From NCBI RefSeq assembly GCF_000974785.1, contig NZ_BBWV01000002.1, positions 682,001 to 746,000 of the forward strand: a stretch of DNA of 64,000 bases, read 5' to 3'. The notes beneath the pieces were generated by a model that saw nothing but the letters and a program-made list of their open reading frames with translations, was not told where the DNA came from and did not search any database. Within the stretch, counting starts at the first letter, position 1. Every line of letters begins with the position of its first letter. Below are positions 40,554 to 63,760 of the stretch, in pieces. Made by a program: the position numbers and the translations under genes. Source of the DNA: Flavihumibacter petaseus NBRC 106054. GTDB lineage: Bacteria > Bacteroidota > Bacteroidia > Chitinophagales > Chitinophagaceae.

Positions 40554-41714
40554 ATGAGAATACTGTTCCTGGTCTTACTCACAGGATGTGCTGTGTTATG
40601 TGGTTATGCCCAGCAAAAGGACATCAGCGGACTTGAAAATGGCAGAGACACCATTACCAACTTTTCGGAGTACAAGCGCGGCGTCACCTTTGGCGGCCTC
40701 CTGCAAACGCGGTTTGTCGCTTCCCTTACCCGGAATGTTGATGTGAGCGGCAAGAATTTTCCGGATACCGTAAAGGGGGTTACCAATACTTTCAACCTGA
40801 AAAGGGTACGGGTGCAGGTAAAGGCAAATGTCAATGATCATTTCAGCGCAGGGATCCTGTTTAACCTGGCAGAATTTTCCAGTGATCCCATCAACAAAGT
40901 GCTGGAGAATGCCTATATCCGCTATTCCCTGAATAAATATTTCAACCTGCAGGCGGGACAGTTCCGCCCCTTTTTCGGGATAGAAGATGCGTTGCCGGTT
41001 GACATTATCCGTACACTGGACTACAGCAACCAGTATTATGCTTTCGGGGCCAACGGCTGGCAGAGTTTCCAGGTGGGATTATCTGTTTTCGGAGAGATCC
41101 TTTCCCGCAATGACTTTACCCTGAAATATTATGCCGGCGCCTATAACGGTAATAACCGCAACCAGCCGGCTGACAACAACAATACGAAAAACTTTTACGG
41201 CCGGCTCGAGTTGCTTCCCGGGAAGAACCTCACCGTCGGGGTCAATGCAGCGAGCGGGAGCCTCGGTGGCAACGCCGGTACCGGAAGTGCGTGGGGAGCA
41301 GATTTCCTGGGACAAATAGATCTCAGTGAAAAGTGGGCAATCCTGTTCAGCGCTGAATTCAAGAACGGCACCAGTTTCACCAACTTCAACAGTTCCTCCG
41401 CTGTTCCCAAACCGCCGTTGAGCGACTTCCGCATGAAAGGCTTTTACCTGTTTCCCATTCTTCGCTTCGAATACAAGCGGCCAAGAGTGAGGGCGATGGA
41501 ACTCAGCGCCAGGTATGAATACCTGGAAGACAACTATAAGCTGACAGATAATCCCCGGCAAACCATTACGCCGAACCTGTCGCTCATCTTTGCAGACAAT
41601 TTCTTCGCCACCATTCAGACCGGCGTCAACATAGACCTGTTCAGGAACGACATACCCCTTACAACAACCTATTCCCACAGCCTTGCTTATGTACAGCTGC
41701 AGATACGATATTAA
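40554..41714 (+). CDS. OprO/OprP-type outer-membrane porin
   Basis: 386 residues with signal peptide ending near YAQQ. The mature protein is a beta barrel: FGGLLQTRFVASL, NTFNLKRVRVQVKANVND, FNLQAGQFRPFFGIEDA, FTLKYYAGAYNG, MKGFYLFPILRFEYKR and a C-terminal YVQLQIRY ending in an aromatic residue. It resembles the phosphate-selective porin O/P family, used in Bacteroidota for various anions. The neighbouring DASS carboxylate transporter, 39 bases downstream, suggests entry of a di- or tricarboxylate (inference). Confidence 0.82.
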   Translation: MRILFLVLLTGCAVLCGYAQQKDISGLENGRDTITNFSEYKRGVTFGGLLQTRFVASLTRNVDVSGKNFPDTVKGVTNTFNLKRVRVQVKANVNDHFSAGILFNLAEFSSDPINKVLENAYIRYSLNKYFNLQAGQFRPFFGIEDALPVDIIRTLDYSNQYYAFGANGWQSFQVGLSVFGEILSRNDFTLKYYAGAYNGNNRNQPADNNNTKNFYGRLELLPGKNLTVGVNAASGSLGGNAGTGSAWGADFLGQIDLSEKWAILFSAEFKNGTSFTNFNSSSAVPKPPLSDFRMKGFYLFPILRFEYKRPRVRAMELSARYEYLEDNYKLTDNPRQTITPNLSLIFADNFFATIQTGVNIDLFRNDIPLTTTYSHSLAYVQLQIRY

Positions 41715-41753
41715 CACAACTGCTAACCAGAACCATTAACCGAAATCATCTTT

Positions 41754-44857: not shown

Positions 44858-45445
44858 ATGCGTACGAACGATAATTGGCGGGATAATCTTTTTGAACGCA
44901 TTTCAAAAGGTGACACCAGTGCTTTCAGGGAGTTTTATGAGAGTACTGTCTCCCGGGTTTATGCCTATCATCATTTCCTTACCAGGTCTGCGTTTCATGC
45001 AGAAGAACTGACGCAGGAACTCTTTATAAAAATCTGGTCCAAACGCGAACAACTGGCTGATATTCAGGAGCCCGATGCGTGGCTGAAAGTGGTGATGCGC
45101 AACCAGGCGTATAATTACCTGAAAAAACTGGCGTTGGAGAAAAAGAACGGCCTGAGTCTGGTCAATGTCCTGCCGGAAACTGGCACCGAAACCAATAATC
45201 TTTTACTGGATAAAGAATACCATCACCTTTTTGAACAGGCGGTGAGCCGGTTACCACCACAACAGAAAAATGTTTTCCTGCTCAGCCGCAACAGTGGTAT
45301 GAAGCATGTGGAAATTGCCGCATCGTTGGGCATCAGCATCCATTCAGTCAAGAATCACATGAAAGCTGCATTGCAGTCGATCCGCATATTCTTAAAAGGC
45401 CAGATTTTCCTGCTGGTCATCCTGCTCCAAAAATTATTTTTTTAA
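44858..45445 (+). CDS. ECF sigma factor, FecI-like
   Basis: 195 residues. Region 2 (residues 20-90): DTSAFREFYESTVSRVYAY, AEELTQELFIKIWSKREQL. Region 4 (residues 120-178): AVSRLPPQQKNVFLLSRNSG and HVEIAASLGISIHSVKNHMK, a helix-turn-helix. The C terminus ends in a hydrophobic stretch (IFLLVILLQKLFF), a common feature of FecI-type sigma factors in Bacteroidota. Expected to drive the susC promoter when released by the FecR protein 47 bases downstream. Confidence 0.93.
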   Translation: MRTNDNWRDNLFERISKGDTSAFREFYESTVSRVYAYHHFLTRSAFHAEELTQELFIKIWSKREQLADIQEPDAWLKVVMRNQAYNYLKKLALEKKNGLSLVNVLPETGTETNNLLLDKEYHHLFEQAVSRLPPQQKNVFLLSRNSGMKHVEIAASLGISIHSVKNHMKAALQSIRIFLKGQIFLLVILLQKLFF

Positions 45446-45492: not shown

Positions 45493-46689
45493 ATGTCAGA
45501 AAAGGAGATTTTCGACCTGTTGCACCGCTATGCCTCGGGCAATTATGCACCGGAGGATGCCGTGAAGATCCGCCAGTTAATGGCTGATTCCCGCTATCAT
45601 GCTGTCATCCTGGATTTTATGGATGCATTTTGGGAAAAACTGGAAGACCGTGCAGAGAATTCGCCGCCTGTTTCCCGGGATCAGAAGGACCTGATATTTC
45701 AGCGGATTGCCGGTAAGATGGAGCCTACGATCGCACCTGTTCCGAAAAGCCGCAACATAGTCAGGATATGGACACTGGCGGGAGCCGCGGCAGCACTGGT
45801 ATTATTTATATCAGTATTGCTGTCCAGGAAAGCTGCCGATAGTCCGGTAGTGCAACGGGATGTGCCTATTGCTGCTGTTACGGATATTGCTGCCCCCGCA
45901 GCGACTTACGCTTATCTGCAAACGGACAATGGATTGAAACTGGGTTTGAAGGAGCTTGGAACATTGCCGGGATCACCGGCACTGATTACTGAAAATGGCA
46001 GTGTGATGGTTCGTTATATCAGCCAACAGAATAATGTGCCCAGGCAGTCACAGTGGCACGAACTGGTAAATCCGCGCGGCAGTAAGAAAATCAACCTTAC
46101 CCTGTCAGATGGTACGCTGGTGAGTCTCAACGCCGGCAGTACGATCCGGTATCCGGCCGGTTTCACCGGTGCCATAAGAGTAGTAGAGTTGAAGGGCGAG
46201 GCCTATTTCGAAGTGGCCAAAGACAAAAAACATCCCTTTACGGTGCATACCGGTTCCGGGGATGTTGAGGTACTGGGTACCCACTTCAATGTCAATACTT
46301 CACGGTTCGACAGTGTCATGCAGGTGACGCTGCTGGAAGGTTCAGTAAAAGTTAGTCACAATGGAAGATCGGATGTGTTGCATCCGGGTGAACAGGCCGT
46401 TGTGGGAGATGTTATAGACGTTTCCCGAGCTGTCGAGTCGAAACAGGTACTGGCATGGACAAACGAAGAATTCAATTTTACCGGGATGGATCTGCGTGAA
46501 ATCCTGAAGGAAATAGAACGGTGGTATGATGTGGACATTACCATTGCTCAGAATGTTCCTGAAATGCGGCTCTCGGGAATTCTCAGCAGAAATCTTTCCG
46601 TCAGGCAGGTGCTTGACATTGTTTCACTCAGCAGCGGCATTCAATTTACCATCAACAATAAAATTATTATGGTGACAGCCGGGGAATAA
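45493..46689 (+). CDS. FecR-type anti-sigma factor
   Basis: 398 residues. Cytoplasmic N-terminal helices (EIFDLLHRYASGNYAPEDA) bind the sigma factor; one membrane helix at about 93-111 (IWTLAGAAAALVLFISVLL); a periplasmic FecR domain with LVNPRGSKKINLTLSDGT, LNAGSTIRYPAGF, GEAYFEVAKDKKHPFTVHTG and GTHFNVN; and a C-terminal DUF4974 domain (NFTGMDLREILKEIERWYDV), which contacts the STN domain of SusC. Complete signalling protein of the FecI-FecR-SusC relay. Confidence 0.94.
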   Translation: MSEKEIFDLLHRYASGNYAPEDAVKIRQLMADSRYHAVILDFMDAFWEKLEDRAENSPPVSRDQKDLIFQRIAGKMEPTIAPVPKSRNIVRIWTLAGAAAALVLFISVLLSRKAADSPVVQRDVPIAAVTDIAAPAATYAYLQTDNGLKLGLKELGTLPGSPALITENGSVMVRYISQQNNVPRQSQWHELVNPRGSKKINLTLSDGTLVSLNAGSTIRYPAGFTGAIRVVELKGEAYFEVAKDKKHPFTVHTGSGDVEVLGTHFNVNTSRFDSVMQVTLLEGSVKVSHNGRSDVLHPGEQAVVGDVIDVSRAVESKQVLAWTNEEFNFTGMDLREILKEIERWYDVDITIAQNVPEMRLSGILSRNLSVRQVLDIVSLSSGIQFTINNKIIMVTAGE

Positions 46690-46786: not shown

Positions 46787-49700
46787 ATGGATTTTAGGCC
46801 TACGGGGTCCTATTTCCGGTCAGGACCGGAAATGCCAAAAAAACTGCTATTTTATATGAGGTTGACTGCCATTTTGTTCCTGGCCGCCGTATTGCAGGTT
46901 TCTGCCAGGGGATTCGGTCAGGAAGTTTCCGTATCGAAGAAGAAAATCGGGCTGGAAAGGTTTTTTCGGGAAGTCAACAAGCAGACAGGGTACAATTTTA
47001 TCTATAACGAAGAACTGGTGAGCCGCACCAGGTCGTTTTCCCTCAACATCACCAAAATGCCGCTTCGCCAGGCGCTGGACCTGGTATTGCGGGATAAGCC
47101 GATCAGTTACCGGATCGTGGATAAAACCATCATTCTACGTCCGGGTGTACAGGTTACGGATGAAGCGAAATTCAGAATAGTTACCATTCCGGTAAAAGGA
47201 AGGGTACTGGATGCTTCCGGAAACCCGCTGTCCGGGGTCAGTATTGTTCAGAAGGGGAAACCCACCGGTACATCAACAGATGAGAGTGGTTATTTTTCGC
47301 TGGAAGTGGAAGAGAATTCGACCATCGAAATTTCGATCGTCGGGTATATGACCAAAGCTATCCGGGTCGGAAAAGATACTGAACTGAATAATATTACCCT
47401 CGACAAACTTGCCAATGACCTTGGGGAGGTAATCGTAATCGGTTACGGTACTACCACCAAGGGAAAAAATATTACGGCTGTATCAACCCTTAAGGCGGAA
47501 AAAATCCAAAACCTGGGAGCGACATCAGTTGGTGAAGCGCTGGCCGGGCGCGTGCCGGGTGTGCTGGTGAATTCAAGCGGCGGTGGCCCTGGCAAAAAAC
47601 CCCAGATTTCCATCCGGGGCGGAGGCACGCCGCTCTATGTTATCGACGACATCATTTCTACAGAGTTTCAGTTCCAGACCCTGAACATCAATGATATCGA
47701 CAACATATCCTTTCTGAAGGATGGTCCCGCCACGGCCATTTATGGTGTGGCCGCCGGTAATGGTATCGTTTTGGTTACCACCAAGAGAGGTGGCAAAGGC
47801 AAGGTTTCGGTAAACTACAATTACGGGCATGACTGGGTACAGCCAACCATTCTGCCAAATAAAATCAGCTCTTACGAAATTGCCACGTTAACCAATAGTG
47901 TTGATGAAATGGAAGGTAATCCGGGCCGTTATGCCCCGGAAGATGTGCAGAAATATAAGGACCAGTCCGACCCGCTGAATTTTCCCAATACCGACTGGCA
48001 ATCCACTGTGCTGAAAAAATTTGCGCCACAGAACCGGCATAACCTGTCTGTAGCAGGCGGCGGAAAACAATCACAGTATTATGCATCATTGGGATACCTG
48101 GACCAGGGCACGCTTTACCGGGAGAACACCAACTGGCTCAAGCGGTATAACTACCGGGTAAGTGTCAGCAGCGATTTTGAAAAGATCGGACTGAAGACAA
48201 CGATTGCTTTGTATGGTACAACAGAATCTCAACGCAATCCCAACAGTTCCTATGGCAGCGGCTATTATTATGTATGGGGACATATCCAGAATTCAAGTCC
48301 CATGGAGAAAGCTTTTGCGGATCTCGAACATACCCGCTATTCCAACAAGGGAGATCATCCATTGGTAGAAATTTCTCCTGAAAGTGGCTATGCCAGGAAT
48401 GAAGACCGCGACATCAATGGCAATGTGGTGCTGCAGTGGAGTGTGCCTGGTGTAAAAGGACTCAGCCTTAAAGGCAATGCCAATTACCGCCAGTTCAATT
48501 CCAGTGGCAGAAGCTGGAATGCAACAGCACCGCAATACAGTATCGGCAGTGATGTGCCGGTGGCAACCAACAAACCCAATCTTTCGCTGGTGAACACCAA
48601 CGGGTACAACTATGTGCTCCAGGGATTTGGTACGTACGACAGAGCCTTTGGAGATCACAGTATCTCGGCGATGTTCGGTTACGAACAAGCCTATGTTTAT
48701 GGTGAGACCAGTACTACCGGAAGAAATTCATTTGACTTCAATTTCGACCAGATCAATTACGGTCCCCAGGCCAATGTATTTAACAATGGGAGCATGTCGG
48801 AGAGCGTCCGGAATGCGTTCCTGGGTCGCTTAAGCTACAATTTCCGCAATACCTATTTCCTGGAAGCCAGCTTCCGGGATGACGGCAGTGACCTTTTCCC
48901 GGAAGGCAACCGCCGCGGTTTCTTTCCCGGTGTGGCGCTTGGCTGGGTGATATCAAATGAAAAATTCATGCTGGGGCTTAACCAGAAAAATATCCTGAAT
49001 TATCTCAAGTACCGGATTTCCTATGGTGAAGTGGGACAAAACACGGTGGATGGCCTGACGCCGTTTGCCTATGTACCTGGATACACACTTGGGTCGGGAT
49101 ACGTGGTGAATGGTGTATTACAGCCTTCCCTCAACATGCCGGCCATCCCCAGCCCGGATATCACCTGGTATAAGATGAATACCTTCAATACCGGTTTTGA
49201 ATTTGCAACACTATCCAATCACCTGAGTGGATCACTTGACTATTTCTACCTGCGTACCACCAACTACCTGGCTTCTGCTTCCGGACAACGATATACGGAT
49301 CCCCTGGGTACGCCTTTGCCCTTCCGCCTGTCAAATGGTGCCAAACGCCGGGCAGGATGGGACGGTTCATTGAAATACAGCAATGTTGCCGGTAAACTAT
49401 CATATTCCGTAGGAGCGAACTACACTTACTTCAATGAGTTGTGGGAAGTAAATCCGAATGAGGATAGTGCCACGCTTAAGAACCCCTACACGACCTCCTA
49501 CAACCAGACTGCTTACCTGCAGACAGCGCTGCTTAACAGTGGCCTTTATCAGAACGCCGCTGATATTATCAATAATCCGCGTCGGTTGTCTTCCGTACTG
49601 GCACCTGGTGATATCATGTATGTGGATGCCAATGGTGATGGAAAGATAGACAACGCAGACCTGCGCCGGGCTGGAAGTGCTACATTCCCAAGGTCCATTT

Positions 49701-50176
49701 TCGGCCTCACGGCTGACTTGCGTTATGGCAGCTGGTATTTCAGCATGCTCTGGCAGGGCAGTGGCAAGCGGAGCATGTACCTGGGCGATGTATTCCGCAG
49801 CAACTATGTCGGAAATATCCGGTACGATTTCCAGACGGAGGATCACTGGACTCCCGGAGCCGGCAACACGCAGTTTCCGAGACTGGTATCCGGCAGTGGT
49901 GTGAATGGCGGCAACAATGAACAGACTTCGGATTTCTGGATTATCGATGCCGGGTATGTTCGTCTCAAAGCTCTCCAGGTGGGATATGATTTCAAACCAC
50001 TGGTGGGCAACAAGCTGAACTTCCTCACCGACCTGCGGGTTACCCTGAGCGGCACCAACCTCCTGACTTTTTCTCAACTGAAGAAATATGGTCTGGATGC
50101 AGAAACCGGCAGTACCAACAACTATGACTATCCCACGTCGCGGGTGTATTCCATTAACGTGAACATCGGGTTCTGA
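46787..50176 (+). CDS. SusC/RagA-type TonB-dependent transporter with STN signalling domain
   Basis: 1129 residues. A short N-terminal extension precedes the signal peptide (LLFYMRLTAILFLAAVLQVSA). Residues 53-115 form an STN domain (GLERFFREVNKQTGYNFIYN, MPLRQALDLVL), showing FecR-mediated self-regulation. Residues 135-215 are a CarboxypepD_reg-like domain (VKGRVLDASGNPLSGVSIV). The SusC signature VVIGYGTTTKGKNITA and plug (GEALAGRVPGVLVNSSGGGP, IRGGGTPLYVIDDI) follow, then the 22-strand barrel ending VYSINVNIGF. Imports the bound glycan or oligomer with the SusD partner. Confidence 0.95.
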   Translation: MDFRPTGSYFRSGPEMPKKLLFYMRLTAILFLAAVLQVSARGFGQEVSVSKKKIGLERFFREVNKQTGYNFIYNEELVSRTRSFSLNITKMPLRQALDLVLRDKPISYRIVDKTIILRPGVQVTDEAKFRIVTIPVKGRVLDASGNPLSGVSIVQKGKPTGTSTDESGYFSLEVEENSTIEISIVGYMTKAIRVGKDTELNNITLDKLANDLGEVIVIGYGTTTKGKNITAVSTLKAEKIQNLGATSVGEALAGRVPGVLVNSSGGGPGKKPQISIRGGGTPLYVIDDIISTEFQFQTLNINDIDNISFLKDGPATAIYGVAAGNGIVLVTTKRGGKGKVSVNYNYGHDWVQPTILPNKISSYEIATLTNSVDEMEGNPGRYAPEDVQKYKDQSDPLNFPNTDWQSTVLKKFAPQNRHNLSVAGGGKQSQYYASLGYLDQGTLYRENTNWLKRYNYRVSVSSDFEKIGLKTTIALYGTTESQRNPNSSYGSGYYYVWGHIQNSSPMEKAFADLEHTRYSNKGDHPLVEISPESGYARNEDRDINGNVVLQWSVPGVKGLSLKGNANYRQFNSSGRSWNATAPQYSIGSDVPVATNKPNLSLVNTNGYNYVLQGFGTYDRAFGDHSISAMFGYEQAYVYGETSTTGRNSFDFNFDQINYGPQANVFNNGSMSESVRNAFLGRLSYNFRNTYFLEASFRDDGSDLFPEGNRRGFFPGVALGWVISNEKFMLGLNQKNILNYLKYRISYGEVGQNTVDGLTPFAYVPGYTLGSGYVVNGVLQPSLNMPAIPSPDITWYKMNTFNTGFEFATLSNHLSGSLDYFYLRTTNYLASASGQRYTDPLGTPLPFRLSNGAKRRAGWDGSLKYSNVAGKLSYSVGANYTYFNELWEVNPNEDSATLKNPYTTSYNQTAYLQTALLNSGLYQNAADIINNPRRLSSVLAPGDIMYVDANGDGKIDNADLRRAGSATFPRSIFGLTADLRYGSWYFSMLWQGSGKRSMYLGDVFRSNYVGNIRYDFQTEDHWTPGAGNTQFPRLVSGSGVNGGNNEQTSDFWIIDAGYVRLKALQVGYDFKPLVGNKLNFLTDLRVTLSGTNLLTFSQLKKYGLDAETGSTNNYDYPTSRVYSINVNIGF

Positions 50177-50196: not shown

Positions 50197-51981
50197 ATGA
50201 AAAAGAAATTCATCAATATATTTCTGATAGCCGTCAGTCTCATGCTGACCGGTATCTCCTGCAAAAAGCTGGATGAAACCCAGCCATACGATAAAATCAC
50301 CGAAGATGAAGTATGGTCATCCAAAGACAATGCCATGAAGTTTGTGTACAATGCGTACAGCAATGTAGTCGGACTTTATACAAACATGGTGGGTGATGAG
50401 GTATGGACCAACAACATCATCGCCAGTGATGGCAATGCATTTACCCGCGACCAGATTTCCCGCGACGAAGACTATGGTTTCAATAAGTTCGCCCAGGTGC
50501 GGATGTGTAACCTGATTATAGAAAAGGCCAATAGCTCACTGCTGGCGGACGTTGATAAGGCTGAACTGGTAGCGCATGGCAAATTCCTTCGTGCGATGAC
50601 CTACTATTGGCTGGCCCGCCGGTTCGGCAGGGTTATCTATGTAGACAGGGTGCTTACCGAAGATGAGGAAACCTACTCGCTCCCGCAAACAGCCAGTGTT
50701 GCGGAAACCTATTCGCTGATCATGAAAGACATCAACGAAGCCATTCCCGGCCTCCCCGATGTTGCCGCAACTTCTCTTGCCGGAAAAACAGCGGGTTACG
50801 CCCTCAAATCGGAAGTTGCCCTGCAGGCAGCAGCCTACACCGGGGACGATACCTATTACCAGCAATCCGTTGACGCAGCGGATGCGGTAATTCAATCCGG
50901 CAGGCATGCCCTCGAACCTGATTATGAAGGCATGTTCAATGCACGCAAGAGCAGTACCACGGAAATCATCCTCGCGTTTTACCGCGACAAATCCAATACC
51001 GTGGTGTCCAATATTACCGACATGCAATTGTCCATTCCCAACGTCAACAATGATGACGTTACCAGGGAGGGTGCCACACCGCATTTTAAGCAGGACAAGG
51101 TGTTTGAGGACTGGGGCAAATATTCGCCCACCCAGAACCTGATCGATGACTACCTCGTAATTGATGACAATGATCCCACCAAAGCTGTTCGCTGGGACCA
51201 GTCTTCCCAATTCATGGCTAACCTGTCACACCGCAATTCATCTTTTGCTGACAGTGCCGTAGTAACCGGTGCAGGCAGTGTGAACTCCGTGATCTACCGC
51301 AACAGGGATCTGCGTTTCGCAGCTTCAGTAGTATATGATTCAACACAGTGGTATGGTGAAACGGTGACTACTAACCGGAACGGTAACCTCAACCGCATGA
51401 TCAAAGGTTCACTGGGATCGGGATGCTGTACGCCCATCACCAATACCTTTCACCGCAAAGGCATTTATGATGACCTCGTTCCCCGCGCTTTTTACAATAC
51501 CCCCACCAACTATCACTGGGTGGTGTTCCGCCTCGGAAGGGTAATACTCAACAAGGCAGAAGCGCTCCTTCGCCAGGGCAAGGTAGCCGAAGCAGTGGCC
51601 ACGTTCAACCAGACAAGAACCTTTCATGGTGGATTGCCGCCTTCCACCGCGGCTGGCGCTGCGGATGCGTGGACGGATTACAAACGGGAAAGAAGGGTAG
51701 AACTGTTCAAGGAACTGGATTATTACTGGACCCTTTTGCGCTGGGGAAAATATGGCGGCGATGCCAACCACAACCTGGCGCCCGGTGGCACCATTCCGGA
51801 ACTGGAAACACCGCCTACTTTTATGGAGATCAATATTCCCAGGGACGGATACCGGGTGGAAGTACTGAAGTGGAACCAGAATGAAGTGCGTGTATTCGAT
51901 GAATCACGTCGTTACCTGCTGCCCATCCAGCAATCCCAGGTAGACCGGCATGGCAGTCTTCAACAAAACCCCAACTGGTAA
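50197..51981 (+). CDS. SusD/RagB-type surface glycan-binding lipoprotein
   Basis: 594 residues. Lipobox GISC with Cys at residue 22. TPR-rich SusD fold: MKFVYNAYSNVVGLY, GFNKFAQVRMCNLIIEKANS, GKFLRAMTYYWLARRFG, VALQAAAYTGDDTYYQQ, and the C-terminal LGRVILNKAEALLRQGKV with ERRVELFKELDYYWTLLRWG and YLLPIQQSQVDRHGSLQQNPNW, the usual SusD end. Forms the lid on the SusC barrel. Located 20 bases after susC. Confidence 0.95.
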   Translation: MKKKFINIFLIAVSLMLTGISCKKLDETQPYDKITEDEVWSSKDNAMKFVYNAYSNVVGLYTNMVGDEVWTNNIIASDGNAFTRDQISRDEDYGFNKFAQVRMCNLIIEKANSSLLADVDKAELVAHGKFLRAMTYYWLARRFGRVIYVDRVLTEDEETYSLPQTASVAETYSLIMKDINEAIPGLPDVAATSLAGKTAGYALKSEVALQAAAYTGDDTYYQQSVDAADAVIQSGRHALEPDYEGMFNARKSSTTEIILAFYRDKSNTVVSNITDMQLSIPNVNNDDVTREGATPHFKQDKVFEDWGKYSPTQNLIDDYLVIDDNDPTKAVRWDQSSQFMANLSHRNSSFADSAVVTGAGSVNSVIYRNRDLRFAASVVYDSTQWYGETVTTNRNGNLNRMIKGSLGSGCCTPITNTFHRKGIYDDLVPRAFYNTPTNYHWVVFRLGRVILNKAEALLRQGKVAEAVATFNQTRTFHGGLPPSTAAGAADAWTDYKRERRVELFKELDYYWTLLRWGKYGGDANHNLAPGGTIPELETPPTFMEINIPRDGYRVEVLKWNQNEVRVFDESRRYLLPIQQSQVDRHGSLQQNPNW

Positions 51982-51997
51982 CGCAAAAACTAATTTT

Positions 51998-52489
51998 ATG
52001 AAACGCTACATACCATTATTCGGATTTCTCCTGCTGGCCTTCTCTTCCTGCCTGAAATCAGGACTGGATGAAAACCTGCCAAAATTCAAGGATGCGCAGA
52101 TTACCGATGTTTTTATGGAATACCGTTTTGAAGATCCGAACAGTACTTCCGGTGGAAGCCCCGTCGTTCGGGTGGTTACGCTTAATCTGACCAATAAGCA
52201 GTTTCTCAAAATTGAAGACCATCCCGGTGCGTCAACGGATTCCGTGGTATTCGATGTGACGGTACCGCCGGCCAGTGGTTCCTTCACCGAAGCAGAACGA
52301 GCCAAAGTGAGTACCACCAACCTGGTCTTTATGAGCAATATCTCTACGGCAGCAACTATGTCTGCAGTCGGCAGTGCGCCACGACCAGGGGCCCCGGGAG
52401 ACTTTACGCAACCGCAACAATATCTCGTCACTGCTGCTGATGGCAGTACACGAACCTGGACTATCCGAATCGCCAATTTCATCAAGTAG
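51998..52489 (+). CDS. Small surface lipoprotein, DUF5018-like
   Basis: 163 residues from MKRYIPLFGFLLLAFSSC, with Cys at residue 18 as the lipid anchor. The mature part is all beta and ends YLVTAADGSTRTWTIRIANF, the pattern of DUF5018-type and related immunoglobulin-like domains that follow SusD in many such loci. Perhaps a third glycan-binding surface protein (inference). Starts 16 bases after susD and is followed by a strong terminator. Confidence 0.7.
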   Translation: MKRYIPLFGFLLLAFSSCLKSGLDENLPKFKDAQITDVFMEYRFEDPNSTSGGSPVVRVVTLNLTNKQFLKIEDHPGASTDSVVFDVTVPPASGSFTEAERAKVSTTNLVFMSNISTAATMSAVGSAPRPGAPGDFTQPQQYLVTAADGSTRTWTIRIANFIK

Positions 52490-52574: not shown

Positions 52575-55500
52575 ATGCGTCAGGTGCTTTTTCCTGCCTT
52601 GCTCTTTCTGTTACTGGCCTGTGGCCAGGTAAAACATCAGCAGGTATTTTCCGTGCTCGATACCAAAGTAAGCAAGGTGCTGTTTGAAAACAGGATTGAT
52701 CCGTTTGCGAAGGTCAATATTTTCGACTACCTGTATTATTATAACGGTGGCGGCGTTGCCGCAGGTGACATTAACAATGATGGCCTGGACGACCTCTTCT
52801 TTGTATCCAACCAGGGGGAGAACAAACTGTATCTCAATAAAGGTGGGCTGCTATTTGATGATATCAGTGTTACGGCAGGTATACAGGGCAAGGCCAACTG
52901 GAAAACAGGTGTTACGCTTGCTGATGTAAACCAGGATGGCTGGTTGGATATTTATGTCAGCGCTGTAGGAAGTTATGCCGGTTTCGCAGGGAAGAACGAA
53001 TTGTTCATCAACCAGGGCAACCTGCATTTTGAAGAGGCCTCCAGCACCTATGGCCTCGATATAGAAGGCTTCAATACCCAGTCCACATTTTTTGATTATG
53101 ACCACGACGGAGACCTGGACATGTTCCTGGTTAATCATTCCGTTCATTCCAATGCTACCCTGCAGGATTCTTCTTTTCGTCATAGAACGGATGCCCGTTC
53201 GGGTGACAAACTCTTTCGTTGCGATAAAACAGGAAACGGTATTTACTATACCGATGTTACCGCGGGTGCAGGTATTTTCAGCAGTGCCCTGGGATATGGA
53301 TTAAATGCCATGGTCGCTGATCTCAACAACGACGGCTGGGAAGATATCTATGTGAGCAATGACTTTCACGAGGAAGATTATTATTACCTCAATCAGCAGA
53401 ACGGACAGTTTAAAGAGATCAATAAATCGGCTTTTGCCCACGAAAGCAGGTTTTCGATGGGCAGCGATATCGCCGATCTCAATAATGATGGCTGGTTGGA
53501 TATTGTGACGGCGGATATGCTTCCGGATGAGGAGAAAGTATTGAAGTCTTCCATGAGTGACGAGCCGTTGTCCACCTACGCTATCAAACAGCAACGCTGG
53601 GGTTACCACCCGCAGTTTTCCCGGAATTGTCTTCAGCTGAACACGGGCGGCGGCATGTTGTTCAGCGATATCGGGCTGATTGCCGGAGTTGCGGCAAGCG
53701 ACTGGAGCTGGTCGCCGCTGATCGCAGATTTCAATAACGATGGCATTAAGGATCTTTTCATTTCCAATGGGATTCTGAAAAGACCCAATGACCTCGACTT
53801 CCTCAAATTTGCTTCCGCGCAGGCAAGGGCTGCTTCCGCAGCTACACTGCGCGATACTGACCGTGAAAAGCTGGAGAAGATGCCGGACGGTGCCGCCATC
53901 AACAGGATGTTTGCTGGCAGCGGAGGGAACAGTTTTACGGATGTGTCTGCAGACTGGGGCTTTCAGGAGCCCGGGTTTTCCAACGGGGCTGCGTATGCCG
54001 ATCTTGACAACGACGGCGACCTCGAGATCATTGTCAATAACATCAATGCTCCGGCAACCATCTATCAGAATCATTCCAGCGACCACAAATCGTCAAATTC
54101 TTTTTCACTTCGGCTGAAAGGTGATATGGCCAATGCATTTGGCTATGGTGCAGCCATAAAGATTACAACAGCCGGTGGTGATCAGTACGCACAGGTGACT
54201 GCCACCCGCGGATTTGAAAGTGCATCAACTGTTCAGCTTCATTTTGGTACAGGTGCTGATACTGTTGTTCGTCAGTTGGTCATTCAATGGCCCGGGGGCG
54301 GAACACAGGTGCTGCAGAATCTGGCCTGCAACAGCATTCATGTGGTAACGCGTCCTGGGAAATTGCTCATGCAGGTGGATCATTCCTGGCCGGTCAGCCG
54401 GGGCAATGATCCCTGGTTGCTTGATGTGACGAAAAGCAGCCGGGTTGATTTTGTACACCGGGAAAATTCATTTAACGATTTTGACCTGCAGGAACTGATG
54501 CCGCAGCAGCTATCTATTGAGGGACCCCGGCTGGCAGTCGCTGATGTTGACGGAGACGGCCTGGAAGATCTGTTTGCCGGTGGTGCAAAAGGGCAACCCG
54601 CTGCATTGTTCCGGCAAACCGTTTCGGGCACTTTCATGAAGATGCCGGTGGAAGCTTTTGAACAGGATAACCTGCAGGAAGCAACAGGTGCCTGCTTCTT
54701 TGACGCGGATGGTGATGGAGACCAGGATCTTTATGTAGTAAGTGGCGGTGGTGAATATTTCGAAGGCGCAAAGCCCTTGCTCGACCGGCTATACCTGAAT
54801 AATGGCAAGGGGAAATTCTCCAGGTCGCAGGGACTACCGCAGATCGCGACGAATAAGTCTGCAGTAGCCGCTGCTGATTTCGATAAGGATGGCGACATAG
54901 ATTTGTTCGTGGGCGGCAGGTCGGTAGCCGGACAATATGGTACTCCAGCGCCATCTTATCTTTTGTTGAACAACAGTAAGGGATCATTCACGGAAGCGCC
55001 ACCGGAAACACTGCCGCAGCTGCGTTTGATGGGAATGGTGACCAGTGCAGCCTGGCTCGACTACAACTCAGATGGCTGGCCCGACCTGGTAGTTGCCGGC
55101 GACTGGATGCGCATTCGCTTCTTCCGGAACCAGCAGGGGAAGTTTACTGAAACTACCGACAGCCTTATTGCACAGCCATTATCAGGATTCTGGAAAACAT
55201 TGCAGGTGGCAGATGTTAATGGTGACGGTCATTCCGATCTGCTGGCCGGCAACCTCGGCTGCAATTCCAAATTGAAAGCGTCTCGGGAATTTCCATTGCG
55301 ATTGTATTGCGGCGATATTGCCGGTATGGGCAGCTTTGACCAGGTGCTTGCCTTATCGACAACGGGAAAATATTATCCTTTTCTGAACAAGGAAGAAATG
55401 GAGAAGAGAATGCCGCTGATCATGCGCAAACAATTTGCTGACTACAGCAGCATGGCGGGGCTCGGTATCGATGAGATTTTCGGCGACAGGCTGCGCGGGG

Positions 55501-55901
55501 CGAAACAACTGGAGATAAACACACTTGCTTCTGTTGTACTGATGGGCGATGGAAAGCATGGCTTCACCGTTCATCCGTTACCTGCCGAAGCACAATGGTC
55601 GGCGCTTTATGCGTTCGCCTGTGCCGATTTTACAGGTGACCGGATAATTGATATCCTTTGCGGTGGCAATTTCTATGGCGTGACACCTTATGAAGGATTT
55701 TATGATGCCAGTGTTGGATTAATACTTGAAGGCGAGGGGAAGAACAACTGGTTGCCGCGCCTGCCCTGGCAAACAGGGTTGGCCATAAGTGGCCAGGTCA
55801 GGGACCTTAAAATAATCCGTGGAAGCGGAGGGCGTGCCATGATCGCCGTGGCCAGGAACAATGCCTCCCTCATCCTGCTTCAACAAACACTAAAAAAATA
55901 A
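52575..55901 (+). CDS. VCBS/FG-GAP-repeat lipoprotein with ASPIC/UnbV domain (CRTAC1-like)
   Basis: 1108 residues; lipobox LLAC with Cys at residue 16. Many calcium-binding FG-GAP/VCBS units such as AAGDINNDGLDDLFFVSN, LADVNQDGWLDIYVSA, VADLNNDGWEDIYVSNDF and VADVDGDGLEDLFAGG form two seven-bladed propellers. Between them, at about residues 510-590, lies an ASPIC/UnbV domain (AFGYGAAIKITTAGGDQYAQV to VIQWPGGGTQ, shown in part). Proteins of this kind often accompany SusCD pairs in Bacteroidota; probably a large surface-exposed binding protein. Function unproven. Confidence 0.88.
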   Translation: MRQVLFPALLFLLLACGQVKHQQVFSVLDTKVSKVLFENRIDPFAKVNIFDYLYYYNGGGVAAGDINNDGLDDLFFVSNQGENKLYLNKGGLLFDDISVTAGIQGKANWKTGVTLADVNQDGWLDIYVSAVGSYAGFAGKNELFINQGNLHFEEASSTYGLDIEGFNTQSTFFDYDHDGDLDMFLVNHSVHSNATLQDSSFRHRTDARSGDKLFRCDKTGNGIYYTDVTAGAGIFSSALGYGLNAMVADLNNDGWEDIYVSNDFHEEDYYYLNQQNGQFKEINKSAFAHESRFSMGSDIADLNNDGWLDIVTADMLPDEEKVLKSSMSDEPLSTYAIKQQRWGYHPQFSRNCLQLNTGGGMLFSDIGLIAGVAASDWSWSPLIADFNNDGIKDLFISNGILKRPNDLDFLKFASAQARAASAATLRDTDREKLEKMPDGAAINRMFAGSGGNSFTDVSADWGFQEPGFSNGAAYADLDNDGDLEIIVNNINAPATIYQNHSSDHKSSNSFSLRLKGDMANAFGYGAAIKITTAGGDQYAQVTATRGFESASTVQLHFGTGADTVVRQLVIQWPGGGTQVLQNLACNSIHVVTRPGKLLMQVDHSWPVSRGNDPWLLDVTKSSRVDFVHRENSFNDFDLQELMPQQLSIEGPRLAVADVDGDGLEDLFAGGAKGQPAALFRQTVSGTFMKMPVEAFEQDNLQEATGACFFDADGDGDQDLYVVSGGGEYFEGAKPLLDRLYLNNGKGKFSRSQGLPQIATNKSAVAAADFDKDGDIDLFVGGRSVAGQYGTPAPSYLLLNNSKGSFTEAPPETLPQLRLMGMVTSAAWLDYNSDGWPDLVVAGDWMRIRFFRNQQGKFTETTDSLIAQPLSGFWKTLQVADVNGDGHSDLLAGNLGCNSKLKASREFPLRLYCGDIAGMGSFDQVLALSTTGKYYPFLNKEEMEKRMPLIMRKQFADYSSMAGLGIDEIFGDRLRGAKQLEINTLASVVLMGDGKHGFTVHPLPAEAQWSALYAFACADFTGDRIIDILCGGNFYGVTPYEGFYDASVGLILEGEGKNNWLPRLPWQTGLAISGQVRDLKIIRGSGGRAMIAVARNNASLILLQQTLKK

Positions 55902-55910: not shown

Positions 55911-58697
55911 ATGCAGTTGCGTTGGATACTTTTTGTATTGGTGGTCGTACACACTTCCGCCAGCGGTCAGCAGACACGCTGGAACCATCGTTATGATCAG
56001 ACCCTGGTCATGAAAATCGCCTGTGCCATCCCTGACAACAAAAAAGGGTCCGTTGTGCTGGCTACTTTTAAAGAAGTGCTGGACCTTGTTCGCAGAACGG
56101 ATCAGATTACGCTGGAAGCGCCCAAAATCCTGTACCTGGTCGGTTGGCAATACAATGGCCATGACGATAAGTACCCGGCTTTCTTTGCAGTCAATGAACA
56201 CCTGAAGCGGCCGGAGGATGCCAATGCCAGGGAAAGCCTGCTCTGGCTGATGCGTGAGGCAAAAAAATTCCACACTACCATCAGCCTGCACATCAATATG
56301 ACCGATGCCTACGATGACAGCCCTTTATGGGATACCTATGTTAAGGAAGATATGCTATCGAAAAATGAAGATGGCACCCTGATGGTTGTAGGCGAGTACA
56401 ATGGAAAAAAGGCCTACCAGGTCAACTACCAGCGGGAATGGGAAAAAGGCTATGCGCAAAAACGCATCGACAGTCTCCTCCACCTGTTGCCAGCTTTAAA
56501 GGAAGCAGGAACTATTCACCTGGATGCCTGGATTGCACGAGACAGCAAGGGGCACCGGGAATCTGCCATCCAGGAAGCAGCCTATCAGCAGAAAGTCGGT
56601 CGCTACTGGTTAAGCAGGGGAATAGAACCAACGTCTGAATGGGTAATGGACTATATGGAAGGAATCATTCCCTTTTACTGGCATTTTAATGCGCGCACCA
56701 CAGATCAGTATCTCCGGCAACCGGCATCCGTGGTTACCGGGGGGCATTTTAATCCCGATCTGAAGCGATCCGACTTCGGACTTGAATTTCTGTTCGGTAC
56801 CAGTATGTACGGGGAGAACCATTTTCCCGGATGGCAGCGCTACCGGAACAAACAATTTGATGGCAATTGGGAAACCGGGTTTATGAAAGATTTCTTCCTG
56901 CAGTTTCCGCAATATGCTTTTCTGAACCGGCTGCAACGACTTTCGGTAACCGGAAAGGGTGAAAACAGGATGGCTGCTTTTTCTGATAGTGTAGTGGTTT
57001 CGCTGAAGGACAGCATTATCAAACGCGGCAACTTTGTTTTCAGAAATCACAACCAGGTCCTGTTTCCGCTGACCTGGCGTTATGATGCCAGTTATATCGC
57101 CTATAGTACGCAGGCTACTATGATCGACAGGCCTGTGCCGCAGCAATGGAAGGGTAAAACAACCCTGGGACTGTTCGTGCTGAACAAATCGGGTTGGCAA
57201 AAGGAAAAGGAGATCCCGCTGCGCAATGGACGGATGCAATTTACCCTGGAAGCAGAAAAACCCGTTTTGCTCGTACCGGCGGGTGCAGCTGCTGTACGGG
57301 CAACGGCGCGGGCCGGGGATACGACCTTTATTCATCACGAAGTTGTTACCAAAATTCCGCAGCGGTTTGCCTATCACCAGACCCTTACGTACAAACTGAT
57401 GCTGGCGGAAGCTGGTTTCGATGGAAAATTCAGGCGGCGGGACAATGGTGTCAATAAAAATTACCTCAATGCAGAACAGGCGCTGGCCGTTATCGGGAGA
57501 CTCGATAAAATAACCCTGGGCATGCCTAAAATTGTTTACCTGGTGGGTTGGCAATACAATGGGCACGATTCTAAGTATCCTGCACTGTTTGAAGGCAATC
57601 CGGCCATAAAAAGGTCACAGGATAAAGATGCGCTGGAAAGCATCCGCTGGCTCATGAAAGAAGCCAGGAAGTACAACACGGTGGTCAGCCTGCACATCAA
57701 CCTGTTTGATGCCTATGAAGACAGTCCGCTCTGGGATACTTATGTCAACAACAATATTATTGCCCGGCGACAAGACGGCAGCCTGATGGGCGGTGAATGC
57801 GGCTATCCCATCAGTTATGCGCAGGAGTGGAAGACAGGCTTCCTGCAGAAGCGTATCGACAGTTTATGTTCGTTGTTGCCGCTTGGTGAAGCGGGTACGA
57901 TACATGTGGATGCCTTTCATACCTGGCCACCGAAACCAATTCAACAGGCTGACGGCAGCTGGAGAATCAGTCTTGACAAATCAATCACCAGTCCGTTCCT
58001 GGGGTTCACCCCCGAAGACGAAACAAAAACACAGGAGAAGATCTATGAATACTTCGGGTCGAAGGGGATCGATGTCACTTCTGAAGGAGTGGATTTTCTT
58101 CGCGAACAATCCTTTGTCCAATGGCAATCCATGGCCTGGTGGTACAATAACAGGGAGCAATACCTGAAATGGCCGGCATCCGTGTATTGCGGCGGAGAAG
58201 ACCGCTCCGACTGGGGGAAACTTTTTGGTACGAGCATGCATGTGGAAGAAGAAGCCAGGATTGATCCGGTTGGATTGCCCGGTGTGAAAGCGGCTTTTTG
58301 CCAGAAGACTTTGATCTGGTATTACCTGAACCGGTTAGATCGTCTGTTCCTGGTCGACCGGGATGGCTATCGCATGGTGCAGTTTTCCGGAGGGGTAAAA
58401 ACGGAGATAGGGCAGGGGGTGTTCCGGTTATATGAAGGGAATGCCCTGCTGGCCGAAGGCAGCGATGTTTGTATGCCGGCCTCCTGGATCGACAGCAAAA
58501 GCATGATTGCGTATAGTCGTGATGGTTATGAGAAGCGGACCTGGCGGCTTCCGGCTGCATTCCGGAAGGCAACGCAGGCGGAAATTTTCGTGGTAACTGC
58601 CAACGGGACAGAAAAGAAAGGCAGTACAAAAATTTCAAAGGGACAACTGAGGCTTCAATTGTCGCCGGATGAGATGGTGTGGATCAAAATCAAATAA
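55911..58697 (+). CDS. Secreted protein with two tandem GH101-like (endo-alpha-N-acetylgalactosaminidase family) domains
   Basis: 928 residues, signal peptide ending near SGQ. Two homologous halves: residues about 26-485 and 489-928. Each has KI-L/V-YLVGWQYNGHD with KYPA (74-90 and 541-560), SLHIN followed by DAY-D/E-DSPLWDTYV, a QKRIDSL helix, AGTIH-L/V-DA (candidate nucleophiles D205 and D667) and TSE (candidate acid/base E243 and E725). The pattern recalls the GH101 catalytic barrel, which in other bacteria releases the core-1 disaccharide from mucin O-glycans. Family assignment is from memory of conserved segments. The gene follows the VCBS gene by 9 bases. Confidence 0.72.
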   Translation: MQLRWILFVLVVVHTSASGQQTRWNHRYDQTLVMKIACAIPDNKKGSVVLATFKEVLDLVRRTDQITLEAPKILYLVGWQYNGHDDKYPAFFAVNEHLKRPEDANARESLLWLMREAKKFHTTISLHINMTDAYDDSPLWDTYVKEDMLSKNEDGTLMVVGEYNGKKAYQVNYQREWEKGYAQKRIDSLLHLLPALKEAGTIHLDAWIARDSKGHRESAIQEAAYQQKVGRYWLSRGIEPTSEWVMDYMEGIIPFYWHFNARTTDQYLRQPASVVTGGHFNPDLKRSDFGLEFLFGTSMYGENHFPGWQRYRNKQFDGNWETGFMKDFFLQFPQYAFLNRLQRLSVTGKGENRMAAFSDSVVVSLKDSIIKRGNFVFRNHNQVLFPLTWRYDASYIAYSTQATMIDRPVPQQWKGKTTLGLFVLNKSGWQKEKEIPLRNGRMQFTLEAEKPVLLVPAGAAAVRATARAGDTTFIHHEVVTKIPQRFAYHQTLTYKLMLAEAGFDGKFRRRDNGVNKNYLNAEQALAVIGRLDKITLGMPKIVYLVGWQYNGHDSKYPALFEGNPAIKRSQDKDALESIRWLMKEARKYNTVVSLHINLFDAYEDSPLWDTYVNNNIIARRQDGSLMGGECGYPISYAQEWKTGFLQKRIDSLCSLLPLGEAGTIHVDAFHTWPPKPIQQADGSWRISLDKSITSPFLGFTPEDETKTQEKIYEYFGSKGIDVTSEGVDFLREQSFVQWQSMAWWYNNREQYLKWPASVYCGGEDRSDWGKLFGTSMHVEEEARIDPVGLPGVKAAFCQKTLIWYYLNRLDRLFLVDRDGYRMVQFSGGVKTEIGQGVFRLYEGNALLAEGSDVCMPASWIDSKSMIAYSRDGYEKRTWRLPAAFRKATQAEIFVVTANGTEKKGSTKISKGQLRLQLSPDEMVWIKIK

Positions 58698-58699
58698 TA

Positions 58700-61651
58700 A
58701 TGATGAATCGTTTAGTCATTTTAGTCATTGCCCTGTTACTGCTTACCAGCAATGTTTTTTCCCGGCAGCACAAGCAACAAAAAGCTGAAAACCCGGACTA
58801 TCCCTATACTGTTGCAGCGTCTCCCTGGCAGGAGGAGTTGGGCAATCACCGGGTGGAATTTAAAGTGCGCCAGGTTGCCGCTCATATAAGCGTCAAAGTT
58901 CAATGGCGCCGGCGGGATGTTGACGCTGCTGCAAAAGGTATCATCGTCCAGGATGCAGCAGGAAACACAGTCGCCAATGTTTATAGAATAAGTTTTGATC
59001 GTGAGAAAGCAGAATTGGCCATCGGCCCGGTTACGCATCCCGGTACCTATTACCTCTACTACCTGCCGGTAACGGGCAAAAAGAATATTGGCTGGTGGGA
59101 AGGCCGGTATAATAGTCCCGAAGCATCTCCTTCGGCAGCATGGCTGCAACAATGGAAAACAGACAGCCTTGCCGGGAAAAAATCCCTGGTTGCCGAAGTA
59201 GTTGGCATGCAAAGCCGCACCGCTTTCGACAGCTTTTTCCCCATGGAAGTTTGTGCATCGGCAGCTGAAGCAAATCAATTGCGGCAACGGTTTCCGCAAC
59301 CTTTCCTGGTATTCCCGGAGAGTCGTGAATTTGCGGTGCGCATGAAAGATGATCTGCCGTTGCGCTGGATCCGGAACGGTCCATCCGGCCGCTTCAGGGG
59401 ACGGGCGCTGCGAAATGAATATTATGTCTTCCAGCTTGCAGTTTATGCAGCCCGGGATTCGATTGCCGATCTGCAGGTTGCACCCGGAAGTCACCTGGTC
59501 ACCAGTTTTAATTCGGGTGGTATCAATGCCCGGGGACAATCCTTCAAAAATAAAATTTCCATACCCCGCCGGCAGGTACAGGCATTGTGGTTTGGGGTGG
59601 ATGTACCCAGGGACACCAATGTGCGCCAGTTGAAATTTCCGGTTATACTGACCGCCAATGGCGTGGATAAGAAAATTGAAGTGGTATTGGATTTGTCTGA
59701 TTCCGTTTTGCAGGATCGTGGTGATGGAGAACCATGGAGACTATCCAGGCTGCGCTGGCTGAACTCCACCCTGGGCATCGACGATCTGCCGGTTGCTCCC
59801 TATGCTGCTTTGGCAAGGCAGGATCGGGTCATTAAAAGCACTTCTGCTACCCTGGAAGTAGCAGGCAACGGCCTGCCGGGCTCGCTGCTTGCAGGAAACC
59901 GGTCACTATTGGCAGCACCTATGGAGCTGGAGGTTGAGGACGCTGATGGGCTGCTGAAATTTACCGGCAACAGACCTTTGTTTGAATTTGAAGCGCCGGG
60001 AAAAATCAGCTGGGTCGCAATAACTCAAGCGTCAACGCTACAGATGACCAGCAGGGGGAGGATGGAGTTTGATGGCACCATCCAGTACCGGGTTGTGCTG
60101 AAGGCACTACGTGATGTCAACCTGAAAGATATTCGCCTGGATATACCGGTGCAGCGTTCTACCGCGCAATATTTTATGGGGATGGGGAGACCGGGGGGAT
60201 TTTGTCCGGAGCTATATGAATGGAAATGGAAAGGGCCGCAGGATGCCTGGTGGATCGGAGCTCCCCATGCCGGATTGCATGTGGAACTGCAGGGTGCCAG
60301 CTATACCGGCCCTTTGCTGAACCTGTACAAGCCTTCGCCCCCGCCATCCTGGTACAACAACGACAAGGGAGGATTTTCGGTCAGGCATCTGGGTGATACC
60401 GTCCATTGTGTAAGTTACTCCGGCGCAAGAACTTTAGCTGTTGGGGATAGTGTCTGCTTTGACTTTAAACTCCTCGTGACGCCGGTGAAACAACTGAATA
60501 CCCATGATCAGTTTGCCGATCGTTATTTTCATAACGGAAATTTTCCCAATCCATCGATGGAAGATCTTCGCACGGGCATTAAGATCGTCAACCTGCATCA
60601 TGCCAATCCTTATAACCCTTACATCAATTATCCATTTCTGACCCTTGATTCCCTCCGCTACTTCATCCGTAAATGGCATGCGCAACAGCTCAAAGTAAAA
60701 TTGTATTACACGATCCGTGAAATTACCAACCAGCTGCCGGAAATCTGGGCCTTGCGAAGCCTTGGTGATGAAATACTCGCAGACGGTAAGGGAGGCGGGT
60801 TTCCCTGGCTCCGCGAACATCTTGGTAGCCACTACGATGTGCAATGGTTTACGCCCATCAACGGCTACCAGGAAAGCGATGCCGCCATCAGGACCAGCGG
60901 TGAGTCGCGCTGGTACAACTACTATACGGAGGGCTTACGATGGCTCGTTGCCAACACCGATATTGATGGCCTCTACCTGGATGATGTGGCATTTGACCGG
61001 TTCCTCCTGCAAAGGATGCGCAAGGTAATGGATGCCACAAAGCCAGGATGCCTGCTGGACCTGCATTCCAATACCGGGTTCTCCAAAGGACCGGCTACGC
61101 AGTATACCGAGTTTTTCCCCTATATCAATAAGCTCTGGTTCGGGGAGAGTTTTCAGTATGATAAAATGCCGGCAGACAACTGGCTGGTGGAAGTGAGCGG
61201 CATTCCTTTCGGGCTGATGGGTGATATGCTGCAGGGCGGTGGTAATCCCTGGAGAGGAATGGTTTACGGGATGACCGTCCGGTATCCCTGGTCTACTGAA
61301 GGCGTTTATTGCGATCCGCGGGATATCTGGAAGATCTGGGACAGCTTCAATATTGCCGCCGCAAAAATGATCGGGTATTGGGAAAAGGATTGTCCGGTCA
61401 CCACCAGTGACAGTTCTATCCTGGCCACTGTTTATGTGCAAAAAAATGCTCTCCTGGTAGCAATCGGTTCATGGGCGGAAAAGGAGAAGTCAATTACCCT
61501 CAATATCAACTGGAAGGCTTTGAGTATGGATAGTACAGGCAGAAAACTGGTACAATCCGCGATACCCAATTTTCAGGAACAGGGACAATATCGTCCGGGT
61601 GAGGCGATAATTGTGAAGCCGGGAAAGGGGTTGCTGCTGGAAATCAGGTAA
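58700..61651 (+). CDS. Secreted DUF6067 / GH123-like glycoside hydrolase domain protein
   Basis: 983 residues starting MMNRLVILVIALLLLTSNVF, a signal peptide. An N-terminal beta region (residues 30-330) is followed by a long DUF6067-type section: KISWVAITQASTLQM, YFMGMGRPGGFCPELYEWKW, DAWWIGAPHAGLHVELQGA and SWYNNDKGGFSV. The last third is a TIM-barrel-like domain with VKLYYTIREITNQLPEIWAL and TDIDGLYLDDVAFDRFLL, whose Asp pair is a catalytic candidate. GH123 enzymes are beta-N-acetylgalactosaminidases; activity here is inferred. ATGATG gives two possible starts one codon apart. Begins 2 bases after the GH101-like gene. Confidence 0.68.
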   Translation: MMNRLVILVIALLLLTSNVFSRQHKQQKAENPDYPYTVAASPWQEELGNHRVEFKVRQVAAHISVKVQWRRRDVDAAAKGIIVQDAAGNTVANVYRISFDREKAELAIGPVTHPGTYYLYYLPVTGKKNIGWWEGRYNSPEASPSAAWLQQWKTDSLAGKKSLVAEVVGMQSRTAFDSFFPMEVCASAAEANQLRQRFPQPFLVFPESREFAVRMKDDLPLRWIRNGPSGRFRGRALRNEYYVFQLAVYAARDSIADLQVAPGSHLVTSFNSGGINARGQSFKNKISIPRRQVQALWFGVDVPRDTNVRQLKFPVILTANGVDKKIEVVLDLSDSVLQDRGDGEPWRLSRLRWLNSTLGIDDLPVAPYAALARQDRVIKSTSATLEVAGNGLPGSLLAGNRSLLAAPMELEVEDADGLLKFTGNRPLFEFEAPGKISWVAITQASTLQMTSRGRMEFDGTIQYRVVLKALRDVNLKDIRLDIPVQRSTAQYFMGMGRPGGFCPELYEWKWKGPQDAWWIGAPHAGLHVELQGASYTGPLLNLYKPSPPPSWYNNDKGGFSVRHLGDTVHCVSYSGARTLAVGDSVCFDFKLLVTPVKQLNTHDQFADRYFHNGNFPNPSMEDLRTGIKIVNLHHANPYNPYINYPFLTLDSLRYFIRKWHAQQLKVKLYYTIREITNQLPEIWALRSLGDEILADGKGGGFPWLREHLGSHYDVQWFTPINGYQESDAAIRTSGESRWYNYYTEGLRWLVANTDIDGLYLDDVAFDRFLLQRMRKVMDATKPGCLLDLHSNTGFSKGPATQYTEFFPYINKLWFGESFQYDKMPADNWLVEVSGIPFGLMGDMLQGGGNPWRGMVYGMTVRYPWSTEGVYCDPRDIWKIWDSFNIAAAKMIGYWEKDCPVTTSDSSILATVYVQKNALLVAIGSWAEKEKSITLNINWKALSMDSTGRKLVQSAIPNFQEQGQYRPGEAIIVKPGKGLLLEIR

Positions 61652-63183: not shown

Positions 63184-63370
63184 CGGGAAAAATCAGCCCC
63201 TTTTCTTGCAGCAAACGGGGCAACAATACCGCAAGGCAAAACTGGTCTCGCTTGCAGGCTTAGATGTTCCGTGGTTGTGTGGCTGGCACTCGTTTTGAAT
63301 ATCATGTAGTACAGAGATTCTCCCGATTACCCAATACAATTTCTTGTTGCAGGTAAAAAGGAAATCACCA

Positions 63371-63396
63371 GAAACCCCCGCCCACGCGGGGGTTTC
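63371..63396 (+). terminator. Hairpin after the VOC gene
   Basis: Perfect 11-base stem GAAACCCCCGC / GCGGGGGTTTC with loop CCAC, followed by AATTTT. The T run is short and interrupted, so it is a probable rather than certain terminator. It ends 46 bases before the next ATG. Confidence 0.6.
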
Positions 63397-63442
63397 AATT
63401 TTAAGAAATGCCAGACCATCATCAACAATTCAATTATTGTTT

Positions 63443-63760
63443 ATGGGATTTGACCAGTACCACGAACCACCTGGGGAACTGCCACAGGAAATACGGACCT
63501 TTGCAAGGATGATCAAATCACTGATCGAGGAAGCAGAAGCGATCGACTGGTATGAACAGCGCCTGGCAGTGGAAAAGGATGAGGAAGCGAAAAAGATCAT
63601 GGAACACACCCAGCAGGAAGAATTCATTCATTTCGGAATGGACCTCGAATTCCTGCTGCGGCGAAAACCAGTCTGGAAACTGATCCTCCAAAACATCCTT
63701 TTTAAAAAAGGCGACATCATCGAGAATGCTGAAAAAGCCGAAGAGGCAGCGGAGGACTGA
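63443..63760 (+). CDS. Encapsulated-ferritin-like (EncFtn family) protein
   Basis: 105 residues from MGFDQYHEPPGELPQEIRTF. Two helices with the EncFtn pattern: IEEAEAIDWYEQRL, holding the metal-site Glu and the conserved Trp-Tyr, and MEHTQQEEFIHFGMDLEFLLRR, holding Glu and His of the ferroxidase site. EncFtn proteins form ring decamers that oxidise iron inside encapsulin shells. The C terminus ends in an acidic AEKAEEAAED stretch with no recognisable encapsulin cargo peptide, and no shell gene follows in the window. An upstream in-frame extension lacks family support and crosses the hairpin. Confidence 0.78.
   Translation: MGFDQYHEPPGELPQEIRTFARMIKSLIEEAEAIDWYEQRLAVEKDEEAKKIMEHTQQEEFIHFGMDLEFLLRRKPVWKLILQNILFKKGDIIENAEKAEEAAED

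Follow-up and report, generated by a model that had tools for sequence, protein, structure and literature searches.

How does a single polypeptide come to carry two glycoside hydrolase barrels of the same kind, and what would two such sites do together? The question is raised by one gene in the window, by which we mean the whole stretch of 64,000 nucleotides of Flavihumibacter petaseus NBRC 106054 DNA analysed here. The gene is present as a single copy in its own genome, and its product is laid out as follows.

55911..58697, + strand: fused two-barrel GH101-like gene, ATG start, 928 aa and a stop
55911..55967, + strand: residues 1-19, hydrophobic, putative signal peptide (by eye from the translation)
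55968..57275, + strand: N-type unit, residues 20 to about 455, barrel then C-terminal beta-sandwich
56163..56165, + strand: D85, N half, GHD aspartate of the triad (hhalign against full-length GH101s; invariant in 30/30)
56523..56525, + strand: D205, N half, predicted nucleophile (hhalign and invariance; ends model strand 182-186)
56637..56639, + strand: E243, N half, predicted acid/base (hhalign and invariance; within model strand 220-225)
57276..57374, + strand: junction, residues 456-488 approximately, with a DTTxI-like stretch (alignment with the N-termini of C-type proteins)
57375..58694, + strand: C-type unit, residues 489 (approximately) to 928, barrel then C-terminal beta-sandwich
57567..57569, + strand: D553, C half, GHD aspartate of the triad (hhalign; invariant in 31/31)
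57909..57911, + strand: D667, C half, predicted nucleophile (hhalign and invariance; adjoins model strand 195-198)
57912..58082, + strand: longer inter-acid loop of the C half (spacing in C-type against N-type rows)
58083..58085, + strand: E725, C half, predicted acid/base (hhalign and invariance; within model strand 253-258)

A preliminary description of this DNA had proposed that the two halves repeat the same motifs in the same order, and the translation bears this out: GWQYNGHD begins at residues 78 and 546, SLHIN at 125 and 593, AGTIH at 199 and 661, TSE at 241 and 723, and DSPLWDTYV is present in both the N and the C half. The residues it had singled out as candidate acids, 205, 243, 667 and 725, are indeed D, E, D and E, separated by 38 residues in the N half and 58 in the C half. 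The halves are homologous (BLASTP 235 bits, E 9e-77, 37% identity over 427 columns). At the DNA level, five of six direct-repeat families in the ORF lie in register, with a spacing of 1365-1452 nt.

Both halves score above the cut-off of 25 bits for the Pfam family Glyco_hydro_101, with 43.6 and 34.3 bits. A single-sequence phmmer search of the PDB with the whole protein gave no match at E <= 1. With profiles built for the two subfamilies to which the halves belong, here called N-type and C-type, GH101 entries made up 14 of 15 and 13 of 17 matched PDB sequences, the remaining matches being weak and to unrelated proteins. Fold matching of models places both halves on the catalytic fold of solved GH101 enzymes.

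As a reference we used 30 full-length GH101 proteins from the genomes of a single order (L110-L139), with open frames between 1166 and 2196 aa. Aligned to these with hhalign, the N-type profile gives a probability of 99.8 (E 4e-28, 404 columns) and the C-type profile 99.5 (E 4e-21, 375 columns). The GHD aspartate, the second aspartate and the glutamate of each half fall exactly on acids conserved in 30/30 of the reference proteins. All three are invariant in 30/30 N-type and 31/31 C-type rows, which include the four fused proteins found in this study.

In both models the Asp and Glu stand at or beside the ends of consecutive barrel strands. Two complete GH101-type barrels per chain are borne out, as had been supposed, with the catalytic pair on neighbouring strands; judged by secondary structure and fold matching, neither half appears to lack a barrel or to have its acids misplaced. 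PDB titles record the SpGH101 mutants D764N and E796Q, a spacing of 32; we take D764 to be the nucleophile and E796 the acid/base.

The distance between the two acids separates the groups. It is 26 residues in 25 of the 30 full-length GH101s, 27 in four and 32 in one; it is 38 in all 30 N-type rows and 47-58 across the 31 C-type rows, 17 of which have 58. Since this contrast runs through the C-type and N-type rows, the longer loop is a lasting trait of the C-type subfamily. The difference in loop first noted between the two halves therefore holds, each half having the form typical of its own subfamily.

Fold, triad and Pfam point to GH101. In one account (PMC11861894), the VDWQD, RFLxN and first tryptophan-lid motifs are described as common to or distinctive of GH101 enzymes. 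Loosened patterns for the three occur in 20, 27 and 24 of the 30 full-length GH101s, and match 0/30 N-type and 0/31 C-type rows; a second lid pattern matches only 3/30 of the full-length controls and is hence uninformative. GHD is present in 61/61 N- and C-type rows, and an H-x-N motif in 57/61. Against the whole protein, the NCBIfam model NF040533 (SpGH101-type) scores 37.3 bits, far below its cut-off of 2900. Because the three signature motifs are missing, 'GH101-like' is a safer label than 'endo-alpha-GalNAcase'.

Characterised GH101 endo-alpha-N-acetylgalactosaminidases (SpGH101, PDB 5a55-5a59; EngBF, PDB 2zxq) are far larger and have one catalytic barrel, whereas the window protein has two per chain and lacks the three motifs. 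In structure comparison, the only comparison made with GH129, the alpha-N-acetylgalactosaminidase NagBb and the Zobellia 3,6-anhydro-D-galactosidase give lower Z than GH101, and the match stops short of the C-terminal sandwich of the window units.

Glycosidases with two domains of the same family are already known. The two GH18 domains of Flavobacterium johnsoniae ChiA, one exo-like and one endo-like, are reported to act in strong synergy (PMC5127042). Like the window protein, ChiA belongs to a Bacteroidota uptake locus and combines in one chain two catalytic domains that share a family but differ in character; it differs in being a secreted GH18 chitinase whose large middle region takes in chitin binding. 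In the window protein one unit comes directly after the other, and both are GH101-like. A literature search, with most subscription papers outside its reach, found no account of a tandem or double GH101 or of the Flavihumibacter fusion.

The gene stands near the end of a run of genes on the same strand, all assigned with Pfam.

44858-45445, + strand: sigma-70-type factor
45493-46689, + strand: FecR-type anti-sigma protein
46787..50176, + strand: SusC-type TonB-dependent transporter with STN and plug domains
50197..51981, + strand: SusD-type glycan-binding protein
51950..52489, + strand: DUF5018-related protein
52575..55901, + strand: FG-GAP repeat / ASPIC-UnbV protein
58679..61651, + strand: GH123_N (PF19543) protein, directly 3' of the fusion gene (1175 bits)

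With a SusC/SusD pair beside glycoside hydrolase genes on one strand, the window contains a SusC/SusD polysaccharide utilisation locus. The listed frame of the GH123_N gene shares 19 nt with the end of the fusion gene; its product has no PDB sequence match at E <= 0.01 and falls in no NCBIfam family. A signal scan found promoter- and terminator-like patterns in about the number expected by chance. Elsewhere in the window, Pfam identifies an EncFtn-like (encapsulated ferritin-like) protein at 63344-63760 and, at 40554-43184, a phosphate-selective porin adjoining a sodium:sulfate symporter-type transporter.

Related loci were compared in a tally of 81, with limited flanks, so that pair counts may miss some. 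The tally leaves out L003-L014, of which nine are copies of kept loci and the other three are two views of one ORF in genome G072 and one N-type ORF in G012. Paired arrangements comprise four fused genes, four loci with N then C as separate genes (L018, L028, L029 and L051, the last with 5 nt between the N stop and the C start) and two with N-C-N (L033 and L037). The rest are two loci with N and an unassigned copy (L044, L047), one with two C-type genes (L081:5461-10189), 50 with a single C, 17 with a single N and one unassigned. In Niabella drilacis (L033) the order is FecR, SusC, SusD, DUF5018-related, N, C and GH123_N, like that of the window with the genes apart. Stand-alone C-type proteins begin with a leader, followed in many rows by a DT-containing segment that resembles the window junction.

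The neighbours of these genes bear on the substrate. Of the 81 loci, 14 have a DUF5018-related ORF and 12 a GH123_N-like one; no GH123_N-like ORF was found in the examined flanks of the other 69. Among 18 neighbour ORFs tested, from 10 loci, five are GLAA-B-type beta-helix proteins (in 5/10 loci), GLAA-B being a name for GH110 alpha-1,3-galactosidases, and GH97, GH109 and GH35 are each found once. These enzymes point to Gal/GalNAc glycans. The other ten (GH43, GH65, MGH1-like, DUF5107/TPR, four other beta-helix proteins, a below-cut-off melibiase and one without a match) do not favour Gal/GalNAc in particular.

Two fused relatives, L015 and L022, have a GLAA-B-type gene positioned between the fusion gene and GH123_N. 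It is missing from the window, and a 51% identical copy is found on another contig of the same genome beside GH2 and GH35 genes. That second cluster (L143:1960-10377, contig C20) comprises GH2, GH35 plus beta-helix, and GLAA-B-type genes. A Gal/GalNAc-rich glycan is our best guess for the substrate, and not more.

The fused form is narrowly distributed. Matches were found in 8 of 149 related genomes, 4 of 396 in a sample of the order and 1 of 395 in a sample of the phylum, the own genome counted each time; neither sample yielded a further two-barrel ORF. Within the genus, 4 of the 15 members listed, F. petaseus and three congeners, have the full two-barrel ORF, and 10 of the 15 genomes have no match. 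A fifth member, F. profundi, has the C barrel and both ends of a deleted N barrel: residues 1-56 of its 536-aa ORF resemble the start of the fused N half (54%), and residues 55-534 the end of the N half followed by all of the C half (76%). A fused ancestor lost its N barrel there in frame, so that the N unit is dispensable in F. profundi. This ORF (L016:8941-10551) lies outside any SusC/SusD locus, with neighbouring frames that read as adenylate-cyclase-like and dehydrogenase-like proteins.

Two 793-aa proteins (L055:1362-3740 and L057:4326-6704) carry a C-type GH101-like unit behind another part. In L055, the one of the two scanned with Pfam, the front part matches inosine-uridine nucleoside hydrolase, a different fusion.

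The window protein likely functions as a pair of retaining alpha-Gal(NAc) hydrolase sites that leave the cytoplasm as one chain, a reading in which we infer the substrate. Could one half alone be catalytic, the other serving as a binding or scaffold module? The history of F. profundi, in which the C barrel outlasted the N barrel, speaks for it, as do the ten same-genus genomes that match neither half. We nevertheless consider it unlikely: the three acids are invariant in both subfamilies, the four fused proteins included. It appears equally unlikely that both halves cut the same linkage and that the fusion merely raises dose or avidity. This would agree with their shared fold and triad, but the subfamily-specific loops suggest a division of labour, and so do loci in which N and C are found together as separate genes.

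The origin of the two-barrel chain was addressed with trees. Of 111 relatives in a genome scan, 80 were retained, representing 79 loci; with further loci from genome searches these gave 110 domain copies, 98 of them distinct. A quick tree was built from 96 of these, two fragments of <300 aa being dropped. There, a clade of 27 rows (support 100) unites the N halves of the four fused proteins with 23 proteins that have one barrel each; the corresponding four C halves sit among 50 such proteins on a side of 54 rows (support 99). Other families and phyla also have N-type and C-type proteins that stand alone. Four rows with C-type scores (L051_1624, L048, L055 and L057) fall on the N side of the midpoint in this unrooted tree. 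L051_1624, the only one of them in the careful tree described below, is placed there on the C side (97/91, likewise unrooted).

The careful tree and the AU tests used 33 rows hand-picked to span both groups, leaving out 65 of the 98. When the nine rows of the fused lineage, the F. profundi relative included, were forced together, the tree was rejected (log-likelihood lower by 343.7, p-AU 8e-106); so was the tree that joined the two window halves alone (lower by 274.6, p-AU 6e-38). Because the halves nest among single-barrel proteins and the trees joining them are rejected, the protein is read as a fusion of paralogs that had parted long before.

Free trees do not unite the four fused N halves in one clade. 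The N half of the window protein groups instead with two Sphingobacteriaceae single-barrel proteins (90/89; in the careful tree, with the one included). Forcing the four fused N halves into one clade is not rejected (p-AU 0.30). As the free trees do not recover that clade, a single fusion event is only a candidate.

An old fused ancestor that was later split, the single genes elsewhere arising by repeated fission, is very unlikely. Fission would also yield the adjacent separate N and C genes seen in several genomes, and F. profundi shows that a fused gene can lose one of its units. Two-barrel ORFs were nonetheless seen in only 4 of the 81 loci, all in one genus, and many recurrent fissions would be needed, each supplying the downstream gene with its own leader. 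The least credible origin is the internal duplication proposed in the preliminary description, in which the barrel was copied inside the gene within the Flavihumibacter lineage, with later divergence of the copies: the halves are homologous, with the same motif order and 37% identity, but each is 54-61% identical to most of the stand-alone proteins of its own kind near the top of its alignment, such proteins exist in other families and phyla, and trees uniting the halves are rejected.

As recent history, that duplication is rejected outright, the halves lying in different single-barrel groups and not being each other's nearest relatives in the trees. A recent copy within the genome was likewise rejected, the protein being single-copy there.

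We consider it probable that the window protein is the fusion product of two GH101-like paralogs that separated in ancient times, each a retaining alpha-glycosidase, acting on two different or successive alpha-Gal/GalNAc linkages. They were most likely joined by fusion of neighbouring genes and not by a recent doubling of one gene. N-type and C-type proteins are separate secreted enzymes in other bacteria, sometimes of the same SusC/SusD sugar-uptake locus. On fusion, the upstream gene would have lost its stop and the downstream gene its leader, leaving a single export signal to carry both barrels.

In each barrel, most likely a retaining alpha-glycosidase, Asp205 or Asp667 would attack, Glu243 or Glu725 would act as acid/base, and the GHD aspartate (85 or 553) would help to hold the sugar. 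With their different loops, the two sites probably take two different, or successive, alpha-Gal/GalNAc linkages of one glycan, which the neighbouring SusC/SusD pair would import. Beyond the observed barrels, conserved triads, fusion history and locus context, we infer the activity of either half, which sugar is cut and in what order, and the cell compartment.

A more far-reaching proposal is possible, and we hold it tentatively: N-type and C-type may be two undescribed subfamilies intermediate between GH101 and GH129 that work as a pair, differing in specificity, on one environmental alpha-Gal/GalNAc glycan, and the Flavihumibacter fusion may be a natural bifunctional enzyme that passes its product from barrel to barrel.

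If the pair works as proposed, it would offer compact GH101-like catalytic units of about 450 aa, with two natural specificities, that lack the large accessory domains found in known GH101s. Related genomes show all three states (genes apart, genes fused, and one barrel secondarily lost), a ready test of why the two were fused. If true, GH101-like activity would extend beyond mucin users to soil and aquatic bacteria too.
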